Origin: a virus
Length of the DNA stretch: 26,945 nt
IMG/VR virus record: IMGVR_UViG_3300018024_000376
Location: 1 to 26,945 of that record
Strand: one strand, 5' to 3'
Part shown: piece by piece, positions 1 to 25,776 of the stretch
How the letters are laid out: each line of letters begins with the position of its first letter
How positions within the stretch are numbered: the stretch's first letter is position 1
Made by a program: the position numbers and the translations under genes
The notes under the pieces: model-generated
Seen by the model: only the letters and a program-made list of their open reading frames with translations
The model's database searches: none
What the model was told of the DNA's origin: nothing

Positions 1-597
1 TTATCCACGTTTCCTGTTTCGGTCTTTTTCGTCACTTCTGAGTTTTTCTCGGATCTCATGTATCTTCTCTAACATTCTTTTTGCCTTTTCAGCGTTCATG
101 GTCCGACCGGTGATTCGTTTTTTGATTTCTTGTATTCTTTCTGACGTGGCGGAAGGTGCAATTTCGATTGGCGGTTCTCCTTTGGCGGCAGTATTGTTTA
201 CAATCAATCTTTTCCTATTCTTGTGGCTTGAGCGTTTGTGAGGGCTAATGAGAGTTTCCTGTATCTGGTTGCGCAAACGAGGGTCGGCAACGTCCTTCAA
301 GGAATGTAGCAACATTTGTTCCACGGGAGCTTCAACCTCATCTGTCACGTGAACCCAATATCGGCCCGTCTTGTACCAGTTGAGTAACACTCGAGCATAT
401 GTCTCGAAAGCCGCTGGTTCCACCCTTGCCATACTCTGAAACATGCTTATGGCTGTCAGGGCTGAACCGTTCCTCAGGATAAACTTGAGAAATTCTTCAA
501 TTGGCTCAACGGGCCAAAGTTTCTCACGCGTGCAAACCTCTCGATAGCCGTTCCAGACCTGGGCATCCACGGACACGCCTATTTGTTTTCTCAACAC
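1..597 (-). CDS. Ribbon-helix-helix-like protein with basic coiled tail
   Basis: This complete 198-residue protein has its TAA stop at bases 1-3. Residues 5-45 look like a ribbon-helix-helix DNA-binding domain: a short strand (QIGVSVDAQVW), a helix, then a second helix (EPIEEFLKFILRNG). The middle is helical without known motifs. The last 60 residues are strongly charged (many K, R, E) and probably form an extended or coiled tail. The start is GTG, preceded by an AAGGA ribosome site, and overlaps the end of the upstream ABC-ATPase/GNAT gene by 7 bases, so the two are probably translated together. A DNA-binding or regulatory partner of that ATPase is an inference; no precise family is recognised. 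Confidence 0.6.
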   Translation of the reverse strand: MLRKQIGVSVDAQVWNGYREVCTREKLWPVEPIEEFLKFILRNGSALTAISMFQSMARVEPAAFETYARVLLNWYKTGRYWVHVTDEVEAPVEQMLLHSLKDVADPRLRNQIQETLISPHKRSSHKNRKRLIVNNTAAKGEPPIEIAPSATSERIQEIKKRITGRTMNAEKAKRMLEKIHEIREKLRSDEKDRNRKRG

Positions 598-2063
598 TTT
601 TTCCTTCTTTTAAGCGCGCGTTTAGGGCGCTGCCAAAAAAGGTAGACTTTTGTCTGCAACAGAAAACCGCAGATCTTGATGAGCCCCGCGAGCTTCACTA
701 GATCCGCAGTTCTGACGGCTTCCTTGTATTCTTCCTTGTGGCCGAATGGAAGATCAGAGCTGAAATATTTCAGGAAACGCACGTGTCCACCTTTCGCGAA
801 GGCCTCCCTGACTCTTTCCAGGTTGGCACTGCTGAGATTTCGAAGGACATCGAAAACGTAATTCTGGCTTCCGAGCAACTGAGCCTTGAACCCGACTTCT
901 TCAAGGACATTTACAATTTTCAGGACATCTTTTGAGGGGTGCTGCTCAGTTATTCTACGCATGCCGGCGCGCTCGGCAAAGGGATTGTATTTTGCCATGA
1001 CGGCTGGCATCTCGACGTACTCCGTTCCTACGAGAGGCAGGGTTTCTTGGATTAGCCGGCGGCCGAGGCCTATCGTTCTGTACTTTGGGTGCACGACGAC
1101 GCGGCTGATGATGCTGAGCTTTTGGTTGATTTCCCCTATAGTCATTCTTGGGAGGACCATTCTGCGTCCGTAAGCTTCGGGCGGCGAGTAGCAATAGGCA
1201 ATCACACCGCATAGTTCCTCGTCGCGGCGTTTCAAGCAGAAAATCTTGCGAACTGCACCGGCCCTATGGGATCGATAATGGAAGCTGGCGAGTTTTTTCC
1301 ACTCTTTTGTTGTGCCCTTTTCGACACGCATCTCGGCCATCAGGCTGCACTCTTGTGCAGCGGTGTTCGGGTAATATTTGATGGATATCTCTTCGCCGAA
1401 ACGTTTGTGGACGTGAACGCTAGGTTTCATGTCTTCGAAGAGATCCATGTGAGTCGTGGCCGCAACGACGGCCTTTCCAAGGGCCCGCGCAAGCTTCTGG
1501 ACGTTAAATGCAACAATCTTCGCAGTATCCCGATCTAAAGTGGCACAAAACTCATCAAAGAGCCAGAATTGTTTGCCGCTTTCAATGAGCTTGGCAATCT
1601 TGTATCTGTAGCGTTGACCATCCGAGAGTTGATCGTAGTTGCGTAGAAATAGGAAAGCATCGTTCAAGCCAACTCGGCTGAGAAGCTCCAGTCCTTCTTC
1701 AACTGTCTTGCCGACAGTTTCGATGAGCGGCCGGGCAGAGTCGATGGGAATAGCGTTCATGTCGACTGCCTCGTCTCCCAAATCTTTGAGCAGCGCTCGC
1801 AGGAGAACACTCTTGCCGCTGCCGCTGTCACCCGTGATATAGACGATGTCTGTCTGGGAGATAGAAATCTGGACGTTGTCGTAGATTACGAACCGTTCCC
1901 ACTTGTCCAAGCCTAGGCCGAAGCCTTCGGCAACTGCAACAACCCTGTCTGAAGGTTTCGGAGTTGCCGTTTCATACGATACGCTGATGGTGAATTTACC
2001 GGACTTACGATCGTAGCGCCTGGCAAGGCGTCGAATCCTGAAATATTCTTTTCGTCTTCTCAA
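591..2063 (-). CDS. ABC-type ATPase fused to GNAT acetyltransferase (COG2401-like)
   Basis: This is a 490-residue two-domain protein. Residues 40-230 are an ABC ATPase: Walker A GDSGSGKS (78-85), signature LSDGQ (146-150), Walker B FWLFDE (166-171) and a switch histidine (H205). There are no membrane segments and no transporter partner nearby, so it is not an importer or exporter. Residues 240-400 resemble a GNAT acetyltransferase, with the acetyl-CoA loop R-x-x-G-x-G in HPKYRTIGLGRRL (325-337). The start is TTG, with AGGTG six bases upstream. This architecture matches what I recall as COG2401. The substrate is unknown. Its place at the end of a viral late operon, coupled to a DNA-binding-like gene, suggests action on nucleic acid or host protein, which is an inference. 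Confidence 0.85.
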   Translation of the reverse strand: MRRRKEYFRIRRLARRYDRKSGKFTISVSYETATPKPSDRVVAVAEGFGLGLDKWERFVIYDNVQISISQTDIVYITGDSGSGKSVLLRALLKDLGDEAVDMNAIPIDSARPLIETVGKTVEEGLELLSRVGLNDAFLFLRNYDQLSDGQRYRYKIAKLIESGKQFWLFDEFCATLDRDTAKIVAFNVQKLARALGKAVVAATTHMDLFEDMKPSVHVHKRFGEEISIKYYPNTAAQECSLMAEMRVEKGTTKEWKKLASFHYRSHRAGAVRKIFCLKRRDEELCGVIAYCYSPPEAYGRRMVLPRMTIGEINQKLSIISRVVVHPKYRTIGLGRRLIQETLPLVGTEYVEMPAVMAKYNPFAERAGMRRITEQHPSKDVLKIVNVLEEVGFKAQLLGSQNYVFDVLRNLSSANLERVREAFAKGGHVRFLKYFSSDLPFGHKEEYKEAVRTADLVKLAGLIKICGFLLQTKVYLFWQRPKRALKRRKKC

Positions 2064-3947: not shown

Positions 3948-4979
3948 TCACCTTGCATCCACGGCGATGACTCCGATACAAGCGCCTAGGCCGGAAGCCA
4001 TCAGATTATTGTTGTTAATGTCCACAATGTCCATCATGTAACTGAACTCTTGAAGGTCAGCTCCCGTGATGCTGCTGTAGAAGTCATCCGCGTTTCCGAA
4101 TGTGACTCCATGAATGGCTCCAACCCCTGTGAACTTTGTTGAAGGGTTAAGATACCAAGGTTCAAGCATGCAATAAAGCGTGCTACCTTGACTAAAGTAA
4201 ATGTTCACAGGGATGCCGAAAGTTGAAGATAAAATCCAAGGGCATGCAATCACGCTAATGGTCACGGCCGTGCTACCATTTCTCTTGCTTATAGTGACCG
4301 TGTGACTAAGGTCTACGTTGTATGGTAAGCTGATTTTCCCTGTTGTGCCTCCTGAGCTGCCACTTTCTTCAGGGATAACTTCGCTCCAGTTGACTTGCAC
4401 GCCATCAACAAGTATGCTGACTCCGTTTGTGTAATTGTTGCCGATATTCTCAAGAGTTGTTGAGGCGCCAGATGTGACCGCGTAAACTTGAACAAAATAT
4501 GTGGCTTGCTGAAGGGGCCCTGCTGGCGTGTTCCTGTTATTCACCGTTAAGCTTGTTCCGCTGCTGTATGTGTGCACAGATGAGCCAACGGCGTCATTAA
4601 AGGCTGTGAGGCCGCATTGGAAATTCTTGAGGTAAACGTTATAATTGCTTCCTGCGCCATTCAAGTATCCAGCTGCTTGAATATCATACGTGCCGGCTGC
4701 AAGCCAGATTGCCGTGCCAAAGCTCTGAGAAGTTGCCAAGTTTGTCCAAGATGTGAGCACGTAATATGAGCCAACCTTGATTCTTATGGCTCCGCTTCCC
4801 CCTGTTGTGTCAAGGAAACTGTCAAACTTTATGAGTAGAATGCCATCTGCGGGCATTGTGATGTTGCCCCAGTCTTTCAGAAGTACCCAGCTTGCAGTTG
4901 TAGCTGCATACTGGGTCGCATCATTCACAAGGTTTGCTTCTTGAGCGATTAGTCTTTCCTGTTCAGCTAAGAGCACCAT
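3948..4979 (-). CDS. Large beta-rich tail protein (tip or fibre)
   Basis: This 343-residue protein lies directly after the tape measure; stop and start share a base (TAATG), so translation is coupled. A short N-terminal helix (residues 1-22, LLAEQERLIAQEANLV) could be the attachment to the tail. The rest is low-charge and beta-rich with many G, S, T, N and aromatic residues and hydrophobic strands every few residues. About residues 25-125 and 150-260 look like two beta-sandwich units. A third part (260-343) ends with DIVDINNNNLMASGLGACIG. Gene order makes a distal tail or receptor-binding role likely; no catalytic motif is visible. Confidence 0.55.
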   Translation of the reverse strand: MVLLAEQERLIAQEANLVNDATQYAATTASWVLLKDWGNITMPADGILLIKFDSFLDTTGGSGAIRIKVGSYYVLTSWTNLATSQSFGTAIWLAAGTYDIQAAGYLNGAGSNYNVYLKNFQCGLTAFNDAVGSSVHTYSSGTSLTVNNRNTPAGPLQQATYFVQVYAVTSGASTTLENIGNNYTNGVSILVDGVQVNWSEVIPEESGSSGGTTGKISLPYNVDLSHTVTISKRNGSTAVTISVIACPWILSSTFGIPVNIYFSQGSTLYCMLEPWYLNPSTKFTGVGAIHGVTFGNADDFYSSITGADLQEFSYMMDIVDINNNNLMASGLGACIGVIAVDAR

Positions 4980-6565
4980 TATCTAAACACACTCCCTGAG
5001 CGGATTCTTTTCTGAGTCGCCGCAGCTGCTGAGCTTGTGGGCTCGACAATAATCGTTTTAAGCTGCTGAAGAAGCATCTTTGACGCGGCATCAACTGTGG
5101 CCTTATCCGCGCTACCTTCAATATTGATAAGAGGCGCCTTCGTTTCAATGTTCACGGTTGTAGGCTTCTGCGCTCCTGTCGGCAAAGCTCCCATGCCAGA
5201 TATGGAGCCTGACATTCCCGTTCCGCCTATCTGAGCTTGCGCGTTGAAGTCTTTGATGGATTTGAGGCCCTTGTTCATGCTATCGTCAACCATGCCCGTC
5301 CAATTCTTCATAGTTTTTTCACTGCTGTCAGCAGCATCTGAGAGAGCATGAGCGAAGCAAACGCTTTTGATGAAGCCTTGAATCGCACCACCCGCCTTAT
5401 CCATGGCTCCGCTAACATCTTTAACGAAGCCGCCAAGAGCTTTCGCAGCTGTGTCAACGGCGTCAAAGATGGGCTTCAGAAGATTGTAAAACCACTGGAT
5501 AATATCAGAAAGCCCCTTCCAAGCATCCTCAAACGCGCCGATTAGAAAGTCTGCAAAAGGTTTGAGTACGCTTCCCCACATAAAATTAACGATGTCTGAA
5601 ATAACCTTGATACTTGTGTAGAAAGCACCTGCCAAAAAGTCTCCAAGTGGTTTGAAGGCATTATTCCACAAGAACATTACAACAGTGGAAAGCACATTAA
5701 TCTCTGTGATCATGTACCCTTTGATGAAGTTTCCAAGCGGTTCAAGAACATTCTTCCAGAACCACTCAAGCCCAACGGTGATTGCTTCAACAGCTTCTTT
5801 TAACGTTCCGCCAAGAACTTTACCAACTTCAATTATGGCGTCTCTGAACGGTGGGCAGTAATTCCAGAGCACAACGATAACGGCAATAAGCGCACCGATG
5901 GCGAGACAAATCAAACCGATTGGGTTCGCATCCATCGCTGCATTCAAGGCCCACTGTATCCCCTCCCAGATGTCCTCTGCGTTTGAAACCGTGTTTATGA
6001 CTGCGATTAAGCTTGGAATCACGGTAAGAGCGGCCATAACCATCGAGTTGGTAACATTCCTCTGAGCTTCGCCAACCTTTTCCTCAGCGATTTGAAGTGT
6101 TCCTTGTGCATCTGAGAGTTTTTGGGCAGCGTCTTTCGCTTGCTGGGAATCTGGGCCGTACTTGGCGACGGCGGCATTGTAGGCTTCCTGTGCTTTAGTG
6201 ACGGCTAATGTGTCTTTCTCAACTGTTAAGTGAGCTTTCTGAAGTGAAATCTCTGCGTTCTCCAGATTGTTGAAGCTCATGTAGAGCATCATGCCAGCCA
6301 TTGCCGCGCTGTTCATGGATGATGCACTGCTTGAGCAGCTCATGTTTGCAGATTCAGTTTCATCAGCAGCATTTTGGGCAGCTTCTCCGACTTGAGTGTA
6401 ACTTGCGGAAATCTGGCTTGTCGCGTCATCAGTTGAGGTTGCAAGGTCTTGCGTGTTACCCTCAATGTCTGTGAAGGTTGTGGAAAGGTTAGTGCCGACG
6501 CTCTCAATCACAGACGACGCTTCGTCATATGCGATTAGCTGAATGTCAATTTCGTTGCTGCTCAT
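4979..6565 (-). CDS. Tail tape measure protein
   Basis: This is a 528-residue protein placed immediately after the chaperone frameshift frame, the usual position of the tape measure. Residues 1-180 are Ala/Ser/Gln/Glu-rich and coiled (for example AEISLQKAHLTVEKDTL). Two hydrophobic stretches follow (about 174-191 and 215-234, IGLICLAIGALIAVIVVLW), typical of tape measures that insert into membranes at DNA entry. Residues 270-360 carry an exact 30-residue repeat with aromatics at 270, 300, 330 and 360. The C-terminus is Gly/Ala/Ser-rich. With the usual rule of about 0.15 nm per residue, a tail near 80 nm would be expected, which is an inference. It starts at ATG with AGGTCA upstream, 6 bases after the frameshift stop. 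Confidence 0.88.
   Translation of the reverse strand: MSSNEIDIQLIAYDEASSVIESVGTNLSTTFTDIEGNTQDLATSTDDATSQISASYTQVGEAAQNAADETESANMSCSSSASSMNSAAMAGMMLYMSFNNLENAEISLQKAHLTVEKDTLAVTKAQEAYNAAVAKYGPDSQQAKDAAQKLSDAQGTLQIAEEKVGEAQRNVTNSMVMAALTVIPSLIAVINTVSNAEDIWEGIQWALNAAMDANPIGLICLAIGALIAVIVVLWNYCPPFRDAIIEVGKVLGGTLKEAVEAITVGLEWFWKNVLEPLGNFIKGYMITEINVLSTVVMFLWNNAFKPLGDFLAGAFYTSIKVISDIVNFMWGSVLKPFADFLIGAFEDAWKGLSDIIQWFYNLLKPIFDAVDTAAKALGGFVKDVSGAMDKAGGAIQGFIKSVCFAHALSDAADSSEKTMKNWTGMVDDSMNKGLKSIKDFNAQAQIGGTGMSGSISGMGALPTGAQKPTTVNIETKAPLINIEGSADKATVDAASKMLLQQLKTIIVEPTSSAAAATQKRIRSGSVFR
5489..5758 (-). repeat. Three tandem 90-bp units coding a 30-residue tape-measure repeat
   Basis: Units begin at W270, W300 and W330, with a partial fourth unit at Y360. 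Each unit has the pattern W-x-x-x-[LF]-[EK]-P-[LF]-[GA]-[ND]-F-[IL]-x-G, followed by a hydrophobic helix. The protein period is exactly 30 while the DNA copies have diverged, which suggests old duplication held by structural selection. Confidence 0.75.
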
Positions 6566-6571
6566 TTTGAC

Positions 6572-7098
6572 CTAACCTTTCTGTTTGTAAAACCATTTTG
6601 CCCACTCGACAAGGAAACGAATTTGAAACGGGGTTAGTTCGCCTATTTGCTGTAGGGTGTAGCCGTATTCATGAGCCACGAACCCTACGGTTTGGGCGAT
6701 GGAGTCGCAGCCGACCCATTCGCCGATTGCTTCTGAGGAAAAAAACTGCCTTCCTTCGTCAGCTTCGTTAAGAGGCGCGCGACAACTTCGTATGGCATGG
6801 CTTTGATGTCTTCAAGAGTTAAGCCCTCACTCGCCGGTGCGAGCATTTTGAATAGAAGCTGCATGCTCCTATCCTTGTTCTCAGGATGCTTCTCCATGAT
6901 TTCGTTTAGCTGCGCGTATGTCAGTAGTTTATATCGTATCACGCCTAAGTCATCATCGTAAAGTTCCCTGATTTCCTTGGCTCTCTTGACAAGCTCTTTC
7001 GGGTTGAAGACGCGGACGCGCTTCAGCTTTTCCTCATCATCCTTCTGCAAGACTTGCTCCATCTCTGTGACTTTTCCCCAATTAATTTCTTCACTCAT
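6572..7098 (-). CDS. Tail assembly chaperone GT product by programmed -1 frameshift
   Basis: A second product of the chaperone gene, 175 residues if the ribosome slips -1 on the T7 run at 6745-6739. It shares residues 1-120 with the short form. It then continues in the -1 frame from S-S-E-A-I through GEWVGCDSIAQTVGFVAHEY, LTPFQIRFLVEWAKW and FYKQKG to a TAG at 6574-6572, just 6 bases before the tape measure ATG. This frame has no start codon of its own but reads as well-formed protein. The G/GT arrangement, upstream of the tape measure and downstream of the tail tube, is conserved in long-tailed phages, where GT helps load tail tube subunits on the tape measure. Confidence 0.85.
6685..7098 (-). 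CDS. Tail assembly chaperone, short form (G-like)
   Basis: This 137-residue protein starts at ATG 7098, with GGTGA five bases upstream. It is charged and helical: residues 10-60 are rich in K, E, R and D, then come LLTYAQLNEIMEKHP and a helix ending VVARLLTKLTKEG. The last 17 residues after SFF are a low-complexity Q/S/A/P tail, as expected for the non-shifted end of a frameshift gene. It sits between the tail tube gene and the tape measure. The G-type chaperone keeps the tape measure soluble during tail assembly. Sequence identity to a named family is not claimed; order, size and the frameshift site carry the call. Confidence 0.82.
   Translation of the reverse strand: MSEEINWGKVTEMEQVLQKDDEEKLKRVRVFNPKELVKRAKEIRELYDDDLGVIRYKLLTYAQLNEIMEKHPENKDRSMQLLFKMLAPASEGLTLEDIKAMPYEVVARLLTKLTKEGSFFPQKQSANGSAATPSPKP
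6695..6745 (-). promoter_or_regulatory. -1 frameshift signal: slippery T7 plus downstream stem-loop
   Basis: In the zero frame the mRNA reads AGU UUU UUU CCU, so the heptamer is U UUU UUU, an X XXY YYZ slippery site (6745-6739). Fourteen bases later a 30-base hairpin can form (6724-6695). Its outer stem is GGCGA/TCGCC, followed by a 2x2 internal loop, then inner stem GGGTCG/CGACTC with one G-T pair and loop GCTG. A structured RNA downstream of a slippery site is the usual stimulator; the 14-base spacer is longer than the common 5-9. Confidence 0.8.
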
Positions 7099-7154: not shown

Positions 7155-7553
7155 TTAGAAGGAACCTATTATGACGTCACTCGCTTCGCCTACAACTTTT
7201 TCGGCTATGATGCCCTTCTGGTCAGCCTTCATTTGAGATTGTGTTAGTACGCAACTTTTGTAAGTCCATTTTTGGTTACCTGACGATGTGCCCTGTGGGG
7301 CCACGATTATGTCAACGTTTGTGCCTCCGTACACGTACTGCTGATAAGTTTTGTCGATGAACATCTTGTCGATGTTAAACTTGAAGTGCTTGTTCCCAGA
7401 TGCCAAGATTGCCGCGTGGTCGCTGCCCAAAGCGAACTCTTTGATTAAGTCCGCGTCCGTTTCATCTGTGAAGCCTTGCGCGAAGCCGATTACGACCGCT
7501 GAGCCTGCGCTCATCTCTATAACGGCGTTACGACCTATTAGTGGAGTGCTCAT
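7155..7553 (-). CDS. Major tail tube protein (probable)
   Basis: This is a 132-residue protein starting at ATG 7553, with GAGGTGA eight bases upstream, one of the strongest ribosome sites in the window; a longer reading to 7565 begins before this site. It is beta-rich with alternating strands (VIEMSAGSAVVIGFAQGFTD, KHFKFNIDKMFIDKT, KWTYKSCVLTQSQM) and one short helical stretch, compatible with the tail-tube fold. A tube gene is expected just before the frameshifted chaperone and tape measure. The strong ribosome site and following T-run fit a highly made structural protein. Family assignment is by order and character, not by a recognised motif. Confidence 0.7.
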   Translation of the reverse strand: MSTPLIGRNAVIEMSAGSAVVIGFAQGFTDETDADLIKEFALGSDHAAILASGNKHFKFNIDKMFIDKTYQQYVYGGTNVDIIVAPQGTSSGNQKWTYKSCVLTQSQMKADQKGIIAEKVVGEASDVIIGSF

Positions 7554-8061
7554 GGTTTTTATCACCTCGATTCAGGGTTAATTGGACAAGGTTGTAAAGT
7601 TGGTTCGCAAGAACGATTTGCCTTGCTTCCCTTTCGGCGACACTTGCATATTTTTGAAAGATTTCTTCGCACACCGGATAATCCCACTGTGCTTCAACAG
7701 ATTGCCCAGCGTTAGCGAGTGGCAAAGTTTCCGTGTGGTCGCGCACAAGAAGAAAGAAAAGCCCAAGCCATGCGCGATAGTATCGGTCCGTGTCTCCGAG
7801 ATAAATCAGCAGTTTCCCAGAAAGCTGCAGAAAGCGAAGAAAGTTCTTGTCTTTCAGCGCTTCAAGTGTGCCCTTTGGGATATCATCAAACCGCCCGCAG
7901 TACGCTTCAATCTTGTAAACGTGCAGCAAGTCGGCGTAAACCTTCCCAAGAATTTTGGTTTGAGGATAAACACCAACACTGTCTGGGATAAGTAGGTTGA
8001 GCACTCGCACCATGGGGTTAATCAAATGCTTTGCAATTTTCAACTTAAGCCACTTGTCCAA
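7528..8061 (-). CDS. Tail-associated hypothetical protein
   Basis: This 177-residue helical protein has a TTG start at 8061, with GGTGA four bases upstream; that site overlaps the stop of the preceding gene. Residues 1-30 are basic and hydrophobic (KIAKHLINPMVRVLNLLIPD). The middle contains KILGKVYADLLHVYKIEAY and LGDTDRYYRAWLGLFFLL, followed by a polar C-terminus. There is no known motif and no clear membrane span. It overlaps the tail tube gene by 26 bases. Between the HK97 gp10-like gene and the tube gene, phages normally encode the tail terminator, but this is longer and more helical than a typical terminator, so that role is only possible. Confidence 0.6.
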   Translation of the reverse strand: MDKWLKLKIAKHLINPMVRVLNLLIPDSVGVYPQTKILGKVYADLLHVYKIEAYCGRFDDIPKGTLEALKDKNFLRFLQLSGKLLIYLGDTDRYYRAWLGLFFLLVRDHTETLPLANAGQSVEAQWDYPVCEEIFQKYASVAEREARQIVLANQLYNLVQLTLNRGDKNHEHSTNRS

Positions 8062-10018: not shown

Positions 10019-12526
10019 TTATGGATAATCGTACGCTTGAACTTCAGCCATTCGCATGTCAAACTTTGTGGCGGTTGACCCTGAAAAGTAGAAGTCAAAT
10101 TTTAAGTATCGCGCGTAGATGTAGTATGGTCCGCCAGATACGGTGCTTTCAGATGCCGAGCTTAAACCGTAATAGGCTGATGGTAAGGTGCTCCATGTGG
10201 CATTGTCGTAACCGTAAAAGACTTGAATGTTCAAATTGCTCGCGTTGTTCCAGACGTGCACTAAGTATGTGAAGGTTACGCTGTAGTTTGCGCCCATGTC
10301 GTAATAAAGATAGCCCATGTGCCCTGCTGTTGCGTTCGTTTCGCCTATTCCTGTGAACGTTGCAAAATTTCCATCTACAGCAGCTTGCAGGTTAGTCGGC
10401 GCTTGTGTCCATCCGCTTTGTCCGCAAACTACGTTCAAGAGCCTATCTTGAATAATGAGTGGAATGTTGCCTCTTACAGTTGTGTTTCCTCCGATTGTGT
10501 GGACTCCGATGAAGTTAGTGCCATAAGCGAAGTTGTTGTCTTTAATCTGGTTCCAATCTGCTGAGCCATCTTCTGAAACAGCGTACTGCATTATGTTCGC
10601 TTGGCTTCCGTCATCGTATATGTTGTTTCCTTCAATTGTGCAGTTTGTGCTGCTGCTTAAGCGGATTCCTGCGTACGTGTTGTTTGCAGCTATTCCGTTA
10701 TCCAGAATGCTCGGGTTGTTTTCGATTGTGAAGTGGTCCGCGCTCAGAAGGTAAATTCCCTCATTGTAATTGTCAAAGATGTCTGAGCCTTCAATGGTTA
10801 TTTGTGAAGCTCCTGAAAGGGTTTTGAGGCCGACGAGATTCCATGAGAGTCTGCAACCTTCAAACAGTCCGCGATTTTGACCTGTTCCTATGTACATTCC
10901 ATATCGCGAGTTGTTCCATCCTGTGCAACTGTACCATTGGTCATTCAGAGTTGCTACGTACCATCCATCGCCTGTGCCGGTTCCAAATCCATTGTATTCA
11001 GAGTAAACGTGGTCGCATATGCTGTCCTGACCTCCCATGAATATCCCGGTTCCGTAACCACGCATGATGTACATATTTTGAAGGGTTCCGTAACCCAGAT
11101 TTATGTATATCAGATAGTTTCCGCCAGGTCCCCCGGTCCCAATGCTTCCTCCTGTTGTGTTCACACCGTCAATATGCAAGTTTTGTATGGACCAATGCCA
11201 GTCAATGCTTCCTGTTGCGTTGAAATAGAGTAAAGAACCATTCAGGCCATTAGCGAATAGGTAGGCGAAAGAATCTGTGCTATCTGGTACGCCTATGATG
11301 CTTATGGGCAGCTGCGAGAATATGGTGTTTGAAACTTGAAACTGTCCTTTAAGATAGATTGTGCCTCCGCCGAATCCTGTGAACGTGTAAGAATAAGCTG
11401 TCAAGTTTCCAATTGCATTGTTTATTATCGTGCTTGCATTCGTGCCTTGAAAGGCAAGTGTACTATTCGCTCCATACCACGCACGAGTATATCCTCCAGA
11501 GTTGTCAATGATGTATGAATCTGGTTCAATCCAACCGAGTGTTGCGCCATTCAGATAATAGTTGTTAGTATTCAAGGAAGTACTGTTCAGCCAAAATGTA
11601 TTGAAGATACTGTATCCGCTGACATTCCAATCTGCCGTTAAGCCTTGTGTGCCATTCGCATACAGAAGAACAGGGATTCCCGTTAAGTTCGCATATGGGT
11701 AAGTGCTCGGCATGCTACCCCCGCCGCTTCCTGATGAGCCTATTGGAAGCCAAGCTGAGGAAGTTGCGTTGTAAACATACAGGTTGCCCGTGGAATCATT
11801 GAAGAAGAGCTGCCTATCAACAGGTGAAGTTGGAGAAGTGGTGCCGTGCTGAACAACCATGTTAAGAATCTGCACCCCACCTCCGCTGAAAACTTGGTTG
11901 ATGGTGGCGCAGTATATTGTTGTCATGTTTGCAGTTTGTGTCAACAAGTTCCCGGTGGCGTAATTGAAGACACTATACGGGACTCCGTTGCTGTAGTAAA
12001 TGAAAACCCAATTTGCGAAGTCATCCACAATCCCATAAGCACCCGCTGCTGGCGTGTACGTTACGTTCTTTGCTCCTGCCTCAATGATAAGCCTTGTATT
12101 GTTAAGGATGGTCACGCTCGCGTTGTAAAGATTCTGCCCTGCAGAAACATATACGCTGCCTCCACCATTCGCACTCGCATTCCCAAGGCCGTTTTGAATG
12201 ATGGTGGTGGCGTTCGTTGTGAAGGGGGGTAAGTATGAGCCGTTTGTGCCGTTTTGTAGGCAGTAGCCTTGGTCAAGCTCGCTCACGATGAAGCTGTTGG
12301 ATTTTATGAACGCGCTGAGTGTGCTGTTCACAGGGATGTCTAAGCGATTTTCAATTTGTTGGATTTGTATGGATACATTCGCGCTTACGTTGACGTTTCC
12401 GCCTTCGTACGCGATTGCAGATAGTCCGGTAAGCAGAATGGCTAAGAGGATTGCTCCCTGCCACCATTTAAGGTTCTTGAAGTTGCTGAACCACGAACTA
12501 ATATTCAACGTTTGACTTTGTGTCAT
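10019..12526 (-). CDS. Membrane-anchored beta-helix spike with discoidin-like C-terminus
   Basis: This is an 835-residue protein. The chosen start is ATG 12526 because AGGTGA lies seven bases upstream; a reading to 12589 has no such site. Residues 21-40 are one membrane segment or signal anchor (WWQGAILLAILLTGLSAIAY). The outside part has about 32 N-x-S/T sequons. Two stretches resemble pectate-lyase-type entry motifs (TTIIQNGLGNA..GGGSVYV and STIINNAIGN..GGGTIYLKG). A right-handed beta-helix with repeated IEGN/IENN turns follows (about 420-680). The last 140 residues look like an F5/8 (discoidin) sugar-binding domain. It could be a virion spike or a host-surface receptor-binding or exclusion protein. 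It lies between the capsid and neck genes rather than with the fibres. Confidence 0.75.
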   Translation of the reverse strand: MTQSQTLNISSWFSNFKNLKWWQGAILLAILLTGLSAIAYEGGNVNVSANVSIQIQQIENRLDIPVNSTLSAFIKSNSFIVSELDQGYCLQNGTNGSYLPPFTTNATTIIQNGLGNASANGGGSVYVSAGQNLYNASVTILNNTRLIIEAGAKNVTYTPAAGAYGIVDDFANWVFIYYSNGVPYSVFNYATGNLLTQTANMTTIYCATINQVFSGGGVQILNMVVQHGTTSPTSPVDRQLFFNDSTGNLYVYNATSSAWLPIGSSGSGGGSMPSTYPYANLTGIPVLLYANGTQGLTADWNVSGYSIFNTFWLNSTSLNTNNYYLNGATLGWIEPDSYIIDNSGGYTRAWYGANSTLAFQGTNASTIINNAIGNLTAYSYTFTGFGGGTIYLKGQFQVSNTIFSQLPISIIGVPDSTDSFAYLFANGLNGSLLYFNATGSIDWHWSIQNLHIDGVNTTGGSIGTGGPGGNYLIYINLGYGTLQNMYIMRGYGTGIFMGGQDSICDHVYSEYNGFGTGTGDGWYVATLNDQWYSCTGWNNSRYGMYIGTGQNRGLFEGCRLSWNLVGLKTLSGASQITIEGSDIFDNYNEGIYLLSADHFTIENNPSILDNGIAANNTYAGIRLSSSTNCTIEGNNIYDDGSQANIMQYAVSEDGSADWNQIKDNNFAYGTNFIGVHTIGGNTTVRGNIPLIIQDRLLNVVCGQSGWTQAPTNLQAAVDGNFATFTGIGETNATAGHMGYLYYDMGANYSVTFTYLVHVWNNASNLNIQVFYGYDNATWSTLPSAYYGLSSASESTVSGGPYYIYARYLKFDFYFSGSTATKFDMRMAEVQAYDYP

Positions 12527-12658
12527 GTTTTGTTCACCTTTTCTTTTTTCACTTTGCCCATCCTTGATAAAGTCTGAAAATAGGGCCATGTTGTACAGGA
12601 GAGGGCTTCGTCAAGGATTTTGGGAGTGAATGTGAGATTTGTAATGATTGTGATTTTG

Positions 12659-24522: not shown

Positions 24523-25776
24523 TCACATTCTTTTGTTTTTGACTGTGAAGATCAATATGTGTTCTTTGTCTATTACTCCTCCAAATTCACGCAACTTTGG
24601 CAATCTCTTACTCGGTAAATTCCGGGTAAACTCCTGTTCAAGTTTTACCCCAACATCATCAAGGAGTTCTACAGTTATCTTGGAGTTGTCAAAAACCCTC
24701 CTATCCAAAACCCTCTGGCCAATCACTATTACTATTTTATCATTGACAACTCTAGCCATTTCTTTCAATGAGAGGCAGTAATCATAATAGAATGCCAGAG
24801 CTTCCAATTGACTCCTCTCGTTCTTGACAGTATTGATTGTCTCTCTCAAAGTGCGCGATGGAGGAGAGTCTATTGATTTCCTACCCCTAACCCAACCCAA
24901 TGTTCGAGACTTGCGACTATTCAATGCCTCTACTGACCAACCAAGCCAATACAGCATGTTCTTAACGGATTGAAAATAGCAGACGCCGTTGCGCTCATCG
25001 CCATATGGAGGTGAACAGATTATCGTAGTGAAGGCATCATCCTTGAAAGGCGTATACACAATGTGTCCATCCAAAACAGTGGCGTCTGCGTTTTTAGGGA
25101 GTTTACTCACACGTAAAATCGCGTCACGTGCTCTTGAAACAAATCGTCTAGTAACATCGGGATTGAATTTCGCTAATCGCCCCGGCTCTAATTTGCGAAG
25201 TCTGATTTCATTCCTGTGAGTCAGTGAAACATCCCTTGCAGTTGCGGAAAACACACATTCAAAAAAATTCCTGATCTTCTGGTCTTCCACATTTCCGATA
25301 GCGATGGAAATTGAACTCAATTCAGGAATCATGTAAAGTTTGTACCAGTAATGGACGTTGTATTTTTGGGGGAAAGCAATGACATGTCTAGGATAATTGC
25401 TCGATGCTTTCAAGATCTCTGCTAAACTCTTTTCGAGCAGCTCCTTCTCAATGTAAGTGGTCTTGGCCCGTGAAATGAGAGTTGCGAGTGGGTTTATATC
25501 GATACCAGCAGTTGGGATTCCGGCCAACACAGCCTCAACAAGTACCGCTCCACCACCGCAGAACGGATCGAGAACGCTTGCTGCCCGTGTGACCTTAATA
25601 AGCTTGCCCGCCAGTGCGGGAATCATAGCCGCTAACCATGTATGCATTCCATGTGTAGAATATTGAGTGTCGCTTCCGGCAAAATCCCAATTTGCAGTTC
25701 GTGTCTCAGGCAAATCGAGGGCTTGATTTTGTTCGATAATTTTCTTCTGTTGCGAAAGGATCGATGCTCTCTCCAT
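24523..25776 (-). CDS. DNA methyltransferase, SPPY type (probably N4-cytosine)
   Basis: This 417-residue protein has AdoMet motif I SVLDPFCGGGAVLVEA (67-82), followed by GIDINPLATLISRAKT (91-106), and catalytic motif IV TTIICSPPYGDERNG (250-264). The S-P-P-Y form is most common in N4-cytosine enzymes, though N6-adenine cannot be excluded. The stretch between (107-249) is long and helical and may carry target recognition. The C-terminus includes VNDKIVIVIGQRVLDRRVF. It ends tail-to-tail with the endonuclease gene, so the two are very probably a restriction-modification pair in which this enzyme protects the CCGG-type site. A TATA box lies upstream. Confidence 0.85.
   Translation of the reverse strand: MERASILSQQKKIIEQNQALDLPETRTANWDFAGSDTQYSTHGMHTWLAAMIPALAGKLIKVTRAASVLDPFCGGGAVLVEAVLAGIPTAGIDINPLATLISRAKTTYIEKELLEKSLAEILKASSNYPRHVIAFPQKYNVHYWYKLYMIPELSSISIAIGNVEDQKIRNFFECVFSATARDVSLTHRNEIRLRKLEPGRLAKFNPDVTRRFVSRARDAILRVSKLPKNADATVLDGHIVYTPFKDDAFTTIICSPPYGDERNGVCYFQSVKNMLYWLGWSVEALNSRKSRTLGWVRGRKSIDSPPSRTLRETINTVKNERSQLEALAFYYDYCLSLKEMARVVNDKIVIVIGQRVLDRRVFDNSKITVELLDDVGVKLEQEFTRNLPSKRLPKLREFGGVIDKEHILIFTVKNKRM

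Follow-up and report, generated by a model that had tools for sequence, protein, structure and literature searches.

A predicted G/GT frameshift gene ahead of the tape measure gene in tailed viruses of Bathyarchaeia

Frameshifting of the G/GT type in tail assembly genes is described as widespread in long-tailed phages (Xu, Hendrix and Duda 2004, as cited in PMC5009743 and PMC3483164). In archaeal viruses, -1 frameshifting of this type has already been predicted in HVTV-1 and in HCTV-1, -2 and -5, and a +1 shift in HSTV-2; psiM2 is also among the predicted cases, and a similar arrangement is listed for psiM100 and phiCh1 (PMC5009743, PMC8211752, PMC3483164). The entry for a tail frameshift in psiM2 in PMC3483164 cites Xu et al. 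2004. According to a 2021 review, only one -1 programmed frameshift has been demonstrated experimentally in archaea, in the alpha-fucosidase gene fucA1 of Saccharolobus solfataricus (PMC8211752). Here we analyzed a viral DNA stretch of 26,945 nucleotides (IMG/VR record IMGVR_UViG_3300018024_000376; the whole stretch is hereafter called the window), in which the tail assembly chaperone locus on the minus strand is very probably a G/GT frameshift gene of a long-tailed (siphovirus-like) virus of Bathyarchaeia. An initial annotation of the window, made from its letters alone, had held that this would show the same trick in an archaeal host; given the earlier predictions in haloarchaeal and methanogen viruses, archaeal G/GT frameshifting in itself is not new.

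The locus resembles lambda G/GT and its counterparts in long-tailed phages in that the gene lies directly before the tape measure gene, has a short 0-frame product and a -1 extension, and carries an in-phase slippery heptamer of the X_XXY_YYZ form. In contrast to lambda-type phages, the Bathyarchaeia family has a U-run site, no conserved stimulatory structure that we could find, an archaeal host and no detected sequence relation to isolated phages. HVTV-1 and HCTV-1, -2 and -5 share the archaeal host, the -1 shift and a chaperone gene directly before the tape measure gene, but their hosts are haloarchaea, and the extension in HVTV-1 is 122 aa long against 55 aa in the window. We re-found the HVTV-1 site as an in-phase G_GGA_AAG, in a record that annotates a joined coding sequence as tail assembly chaperone, and the psiM2 site as an in-phase A_AAA_AAG followed by a 76-aa -1 extension. 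psiM2 is thus alike in its archaeal host and in-phase heptamer with a -1 extension, and differs in its slippery sequence and in the one gene that separates the frameshifted gene from the tape measure gene. fucA1 is likewise a -1 programmed frameshift in archaea; however, it encodes a cellular enzyme that needs the shift to be functional, uses another slippery sequence with rare codons and involves no viral G/GT pair. Within the open-licence literature, we found no report of frameshifting in Bathyarchaeia viruses, and one paper on these viruses and another on archaeal head-tailed proviruses made no mention of it. What seems to be new is the host lineage and a conserved U-run site without conserved RNA structure.

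Layout of the chaperone locus

Inspection of the minus strand revealed two overlapping open reading frames (ORFs) upstream of the tape measure gene, with the gene order probable tail tube (7565-7155), chaperone (7098-6685) and tape measure (6565-4979). The features are as follows.

6685..7098, minus strand: G-like tail assembly chaperone, 0-frame ORF of 137 aa with a variable Pro/Ser-rich C-terminal tail (from the ORF, the family alignment and its position adjoining the tape measure gene)
6739..6745, minus strand: slippery heptamer U_UUU_UUU (T7 run), 0-frame codons AGU UUU UUU, in phase for tandem -1 slippage
6572..6739, minus strand: T-like domain in the -1 frame only, 55 aa (SSEAIGEW...FYKQKG), TAG stop at 6574-6572
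6572..7098, minus strand: predicted GT fusion product of 175 aa, via -1 slippage at 6745-6739
4979..6565, minus strand: tape measure protein, 528 aa (several PHROG tape measure families, best E 2.3e-15)
7155..7565, minus strand: probable tail tube protein, the gene preceding the chaperone (from its position and from the gene order kept in the G086 and G032 proviruses)
6695..6724, minus strand: stem-loop of 30 nt beginning 14 nt past the slippery site, specific to the window and probably not a conserved stimulator

The T7 run at 6745-6739 lies 17 codons ahead of the 0-frame stop of the chaperone, in the phase that the initial annotation had noted, (AG)U UUU UUU. Reading in the -1 frame from this point adds 55 residues (SSEAIGEWVGCDSIAQTVGFVAHEYGYTLQQIGELTPFQIRFLVEWAKWFYKQKG), and this frame is open through the T7 to the TAG at 6574-6572, with the tape measure ATG (6565) following 6 bases on. 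The distance from the chaperone stop to the tape measure gene is 119 bases and not 113, as first annotated; 113 bases reach the end of the -1 stop. Nor is this gap free of start codons, as had been claimed, since a GTG at 6679-6677 (-1 frame) and an ATG at 6672-6670 (0 frame) are present; only a start ahead of the conserved T domain is missing, as neither codon precedes that domain.

Conservation of the heptamer and of the -1 extension

Relatives were collected from virus records and archaeal genomes. Scanning IMG/VR yielded six records that span the whole region (L002, L005-L009), and terminase-led searches added further ones. A G/T fusion profile matched G and T together in 16 virus records besides the window. 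A first scan of genome contigs with the chaperone alignment gave no matches; a terminase alignment then revealed the host group, and Bathyarchaeia genomes were searched after this indication. In total, 32 loci with both G and T parts were compared: 17 virus records, including the window, and 15 loci in archaeal genomes, of which 12 come from Bathyarchaeia genomes and the other 3 from further genomes sampled within the phylum. These related loci are not independent and form 15 clusters at 50% identity. Comparison across the 32 loci strongly supports the main prediction of the initial annotation, that the tail chaperone gene of an archaeal tailed virus hides a -1 frameshift product.

Relative to G, the T part is in the -1 frame at every one of the 32 loci, and the junction carries an in-phase X_XXY_YYZ heptamer. 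The heptamer is U_UUU_UUN at 28 loci (UUUUUUA 13, UUUUUUU 9, UUUUUUG 5, UUUUUUC 1), A_AAU_UUY at three (AAAUUUC 2, AAAUUUU 1) and C_CCU_UUC at one (CCCUUUC). The chance expectation, derived from heptamer frequency in the other genes of the window, is 0.56 loci of 32 with an in-phase U_UUU_UUN in the overlap and 3.4 with any X_XXY_YYZ. By cluster, U_UUU_UUN occurs in 12 of the 15. Nucleotide conservation of the T7, which the initial annotation had proposed as a check, was borne out in the window and its 8 closest relatives, where the run is identical and preceded by AG or GG while the flanking sequence varies. Two nearly identical G/T pairs, L114 and L115 (G295:C19 and G323:C12), carry A_AAU_UUC in place of the U-run; they come from genomes sampled from the phylum, outside the class-search matches. 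Elsewhere in the window, two more in-phase U_UUU_UUU heptamers are found at 25267 and 26301 (minus strand), inside a methyltransferase-like and a GmrSD-like ORF.

The junction is best explained by the tRNAs in the P and A sites slipping back in tandem by one base on U_UUU_UUN; we infer slippage itself and its efficiency. Most ribosomes would stay in the 0 frame and produce the 137-residue G-type chaperone, whereas a minority would slip back one base at U_UUU_UUU as the P-site and A-site tRNAs pair anew with UUU UUU; these ribosomes would produce the 175-residue GT fusion, whose T domain is predicted to be a small four-helix unit. On the lambda model, taken over by analogy, G would form a coat on the tape measure protein, with the T domain serving to recruit tail tube subunits. 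Alternatively, RNA polymerase could slip at the T7 and generate a mixed mRNA pool, in which transcripts that had gained one U (or lost two) would encode the fusion. The 7-T run in the window and its 8 close relatives would suit this improbable mechanism, but among the other 23 loci, 19 have a run of just six T before an A, G or C, and the remaining four, with A_AAU_UUY or C_CCU_UUC, have no long homopolymer and keep the logic of tandem tRNA re-pairing. The feature that is kept is the phased heptamer rather than the run length, which disfavours polymerase slippage.

The -1 extension is kept at the protein level in the relatives (31-sequence T alignment), and in close relatives the conservation of T residues reaches all the way to the slippery codons. 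Among the window and its 8 closest relatives, the ratio of nonsynonymous to synonymous substitution rates (dN/dS) in the -1 frame was 0.12 past the 0-frame stop and 0.20 across the whole T region, compared with more than 1.2 for the remaining two frames; inside the overlap, it was 0.43 for the -1 frame and 0.86 for the 0-frame tail. The -1 extension therefore behaves like a translated protein domain, as the initial annotation had supposed of an open frame ending just 6 bases short of the tape measure gene; it is the 0-frame tail that is weakly constrained. At the level of codon substitutions, the -1 frame alone is under purifying selection in the T region. An AlphaFold2 (AF2) model of T showed a four-helix domain with a predicted local distance difference test score (pLDDT) of 96.

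The in-frame GTG at 6679-6677 raises the much less probable alternative that T is a separate small protein translated in the -1 frame from its own start. This codon reads ATA in L002 and L005, however, and initiation there would drop the first 20 residues of the conserved domain. Moreover, at none of the 32 loci is there an ATG, GTG or TTG in the T frame upstream of codon 13, and T as a separate gene with its own start, which had been named beforehand as contrary evidence, was found at 0 of 32 loci. Least probable of all is a sequencing or assembly error that split one continuous gene, for although the frame change coincides with a homopolymer, the -1 relation recurs in separate records, 32 loci in all, among them the two proviral copies on contig G086:C1, and some sites lack a long homopolymer.

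The comparison extends a conserved tail-assembly frameshift to viruses of Bathyarchaeia, which are abundant, mostly uncultured archaea, with denser comparative support than for the earlier archaeal cases compared. Because a single archaeal -1 frameshift has been demonstrated experimentally (PMC8211752), the 32 conserved natural sites provide direct material for testing slippage by archaeal ribosomes. As a rule for annotation, standard gene callers will miss the T domain of these viruses.

Identity of G and candidate stimulators

Several observations weigh against the assignment as a G/GT frameshift gene. One locus, on contig G118:C130 (L087/L124), consists of a G-like gene with the tape measure gene directly after it, without a T part or slippery site. 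This locus represents either natural loss of T or a decaying provirus. No family library names G, Pfam Phage_TAC_7 being reached only at E 0.08-0.12, below its cut-off, Foldseek gave no match at E <0.001, and no PDB relative turned up. In addition, neither a conserved structure downstream nor a Shine-Dalgarno-like stimulator could be found. G proteins diverge widely, and homology to a named family is helpful rather than strictly required.

The 31 aligned G proteins are 21-70% identical to G of the window. Searches of Pfam, PHROGs and PDB to name the family returned nothing above cut-off, and tblastn of isolated phage records gave no convincing homologue. The AF2 model of G (pLDDT 79.5) comprises a helix, a beta hairpin and further helices, and its weak Foldseek matches include several proteins annotated as tail assembly chaperones, one of them from halophage ChaoS9; the best match (E 7.6e-3) was to an unnamed protein. 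G would presumably act as a chaperone. Among further relatives, G035:C35 is a decayed copy with stops, and 15 other virus records with a related terminase had no match to either profile, which is uninformative as many of them are fragments.

The initial annotation had combined the T7 and the stem-loop into a complete recoding signal. The stem-loop at 6724-6695 is indeed the minimum free energy fold 14 nt past the T7, but its z of -1.9 against shuffles of its own 60-nt stretch is weak, and it is not part of a conserved signal: 8 of its 12 pairs are broken in some relatives, none covaries, and 58% of the pair cells form in a seven-sequence alignment. The mean z downstream of the 32 slippery sites is about -0.1 to -0.2. 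A role as conserved stimulator was rejected on the pair counts, the consensus fold and the shuffles at the 32 loci. Upstream of the slippery sites, Shine-Dalgarno-like matches of at least 4 bases occur at 59%, against a background of 34%, among loci that are related and not independent, and matches of at least 5 bases are absent; with only this slight excess, an upstream stimulator was not accepted. One tentative and rather doubtful proposal is that Bathyarchaeia ribosomes shift -1 on a bare U_UUU_UUN, so that the heptamer alone would set the G:GT ratio across the virus group, perhaps with a host-specific modification state of tRNA-Phe or tRNA-Leu.

Host and neighbouring genes

Four Candidatus Bathyarchaeota metagenome-assembled genomes (MAGs) contain sequences that share 63-79% identity with the terminase (TerL). 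A single contig of 2,202,057 bases, G086:C1, contains G/T pairs at 793 kb and 1366 kb as well as a complete 16S gene, for which SSU_rRNA_archaea is the best Rfam family (1511 bits). Around the 793-kb copy, a tube-like gene, the chaperone gene and the tape measure gene are arranged as in the window, with the terminase nearby. Relatives of the virus are integrated in Bathyarchaeia chromosomes. The host group of the window's relatives is Bathyarchaeia, and an archaeal host is independently supported. In one Bathyarchaeia MAG, contigs C30, C107, C133 and C152 of G032 contain at least 4 different chaperone loci, with partial ones on further contigs, which suggests either that one genome carries several proviruses or that the bin is mixed.

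For the gene at 7155-7565, no match in the family library search named the product. An ABC-type ATPase domain and a GNAT acetyltransferase domain are joined in one ORF at 591-2063 (minus strand); its relatives (53-58% identity) are found close to the terminase in the G086 provirus and in L071, which places this ORF in the virus group. Another ORF, at 10019-12589 (minus strand), lies between the capsid region and the tail genes and encodes 856 aa rich in Asn, Thr and Gly with a repeat-like appearance, possibly a receptor-binding or beta-helix protein.
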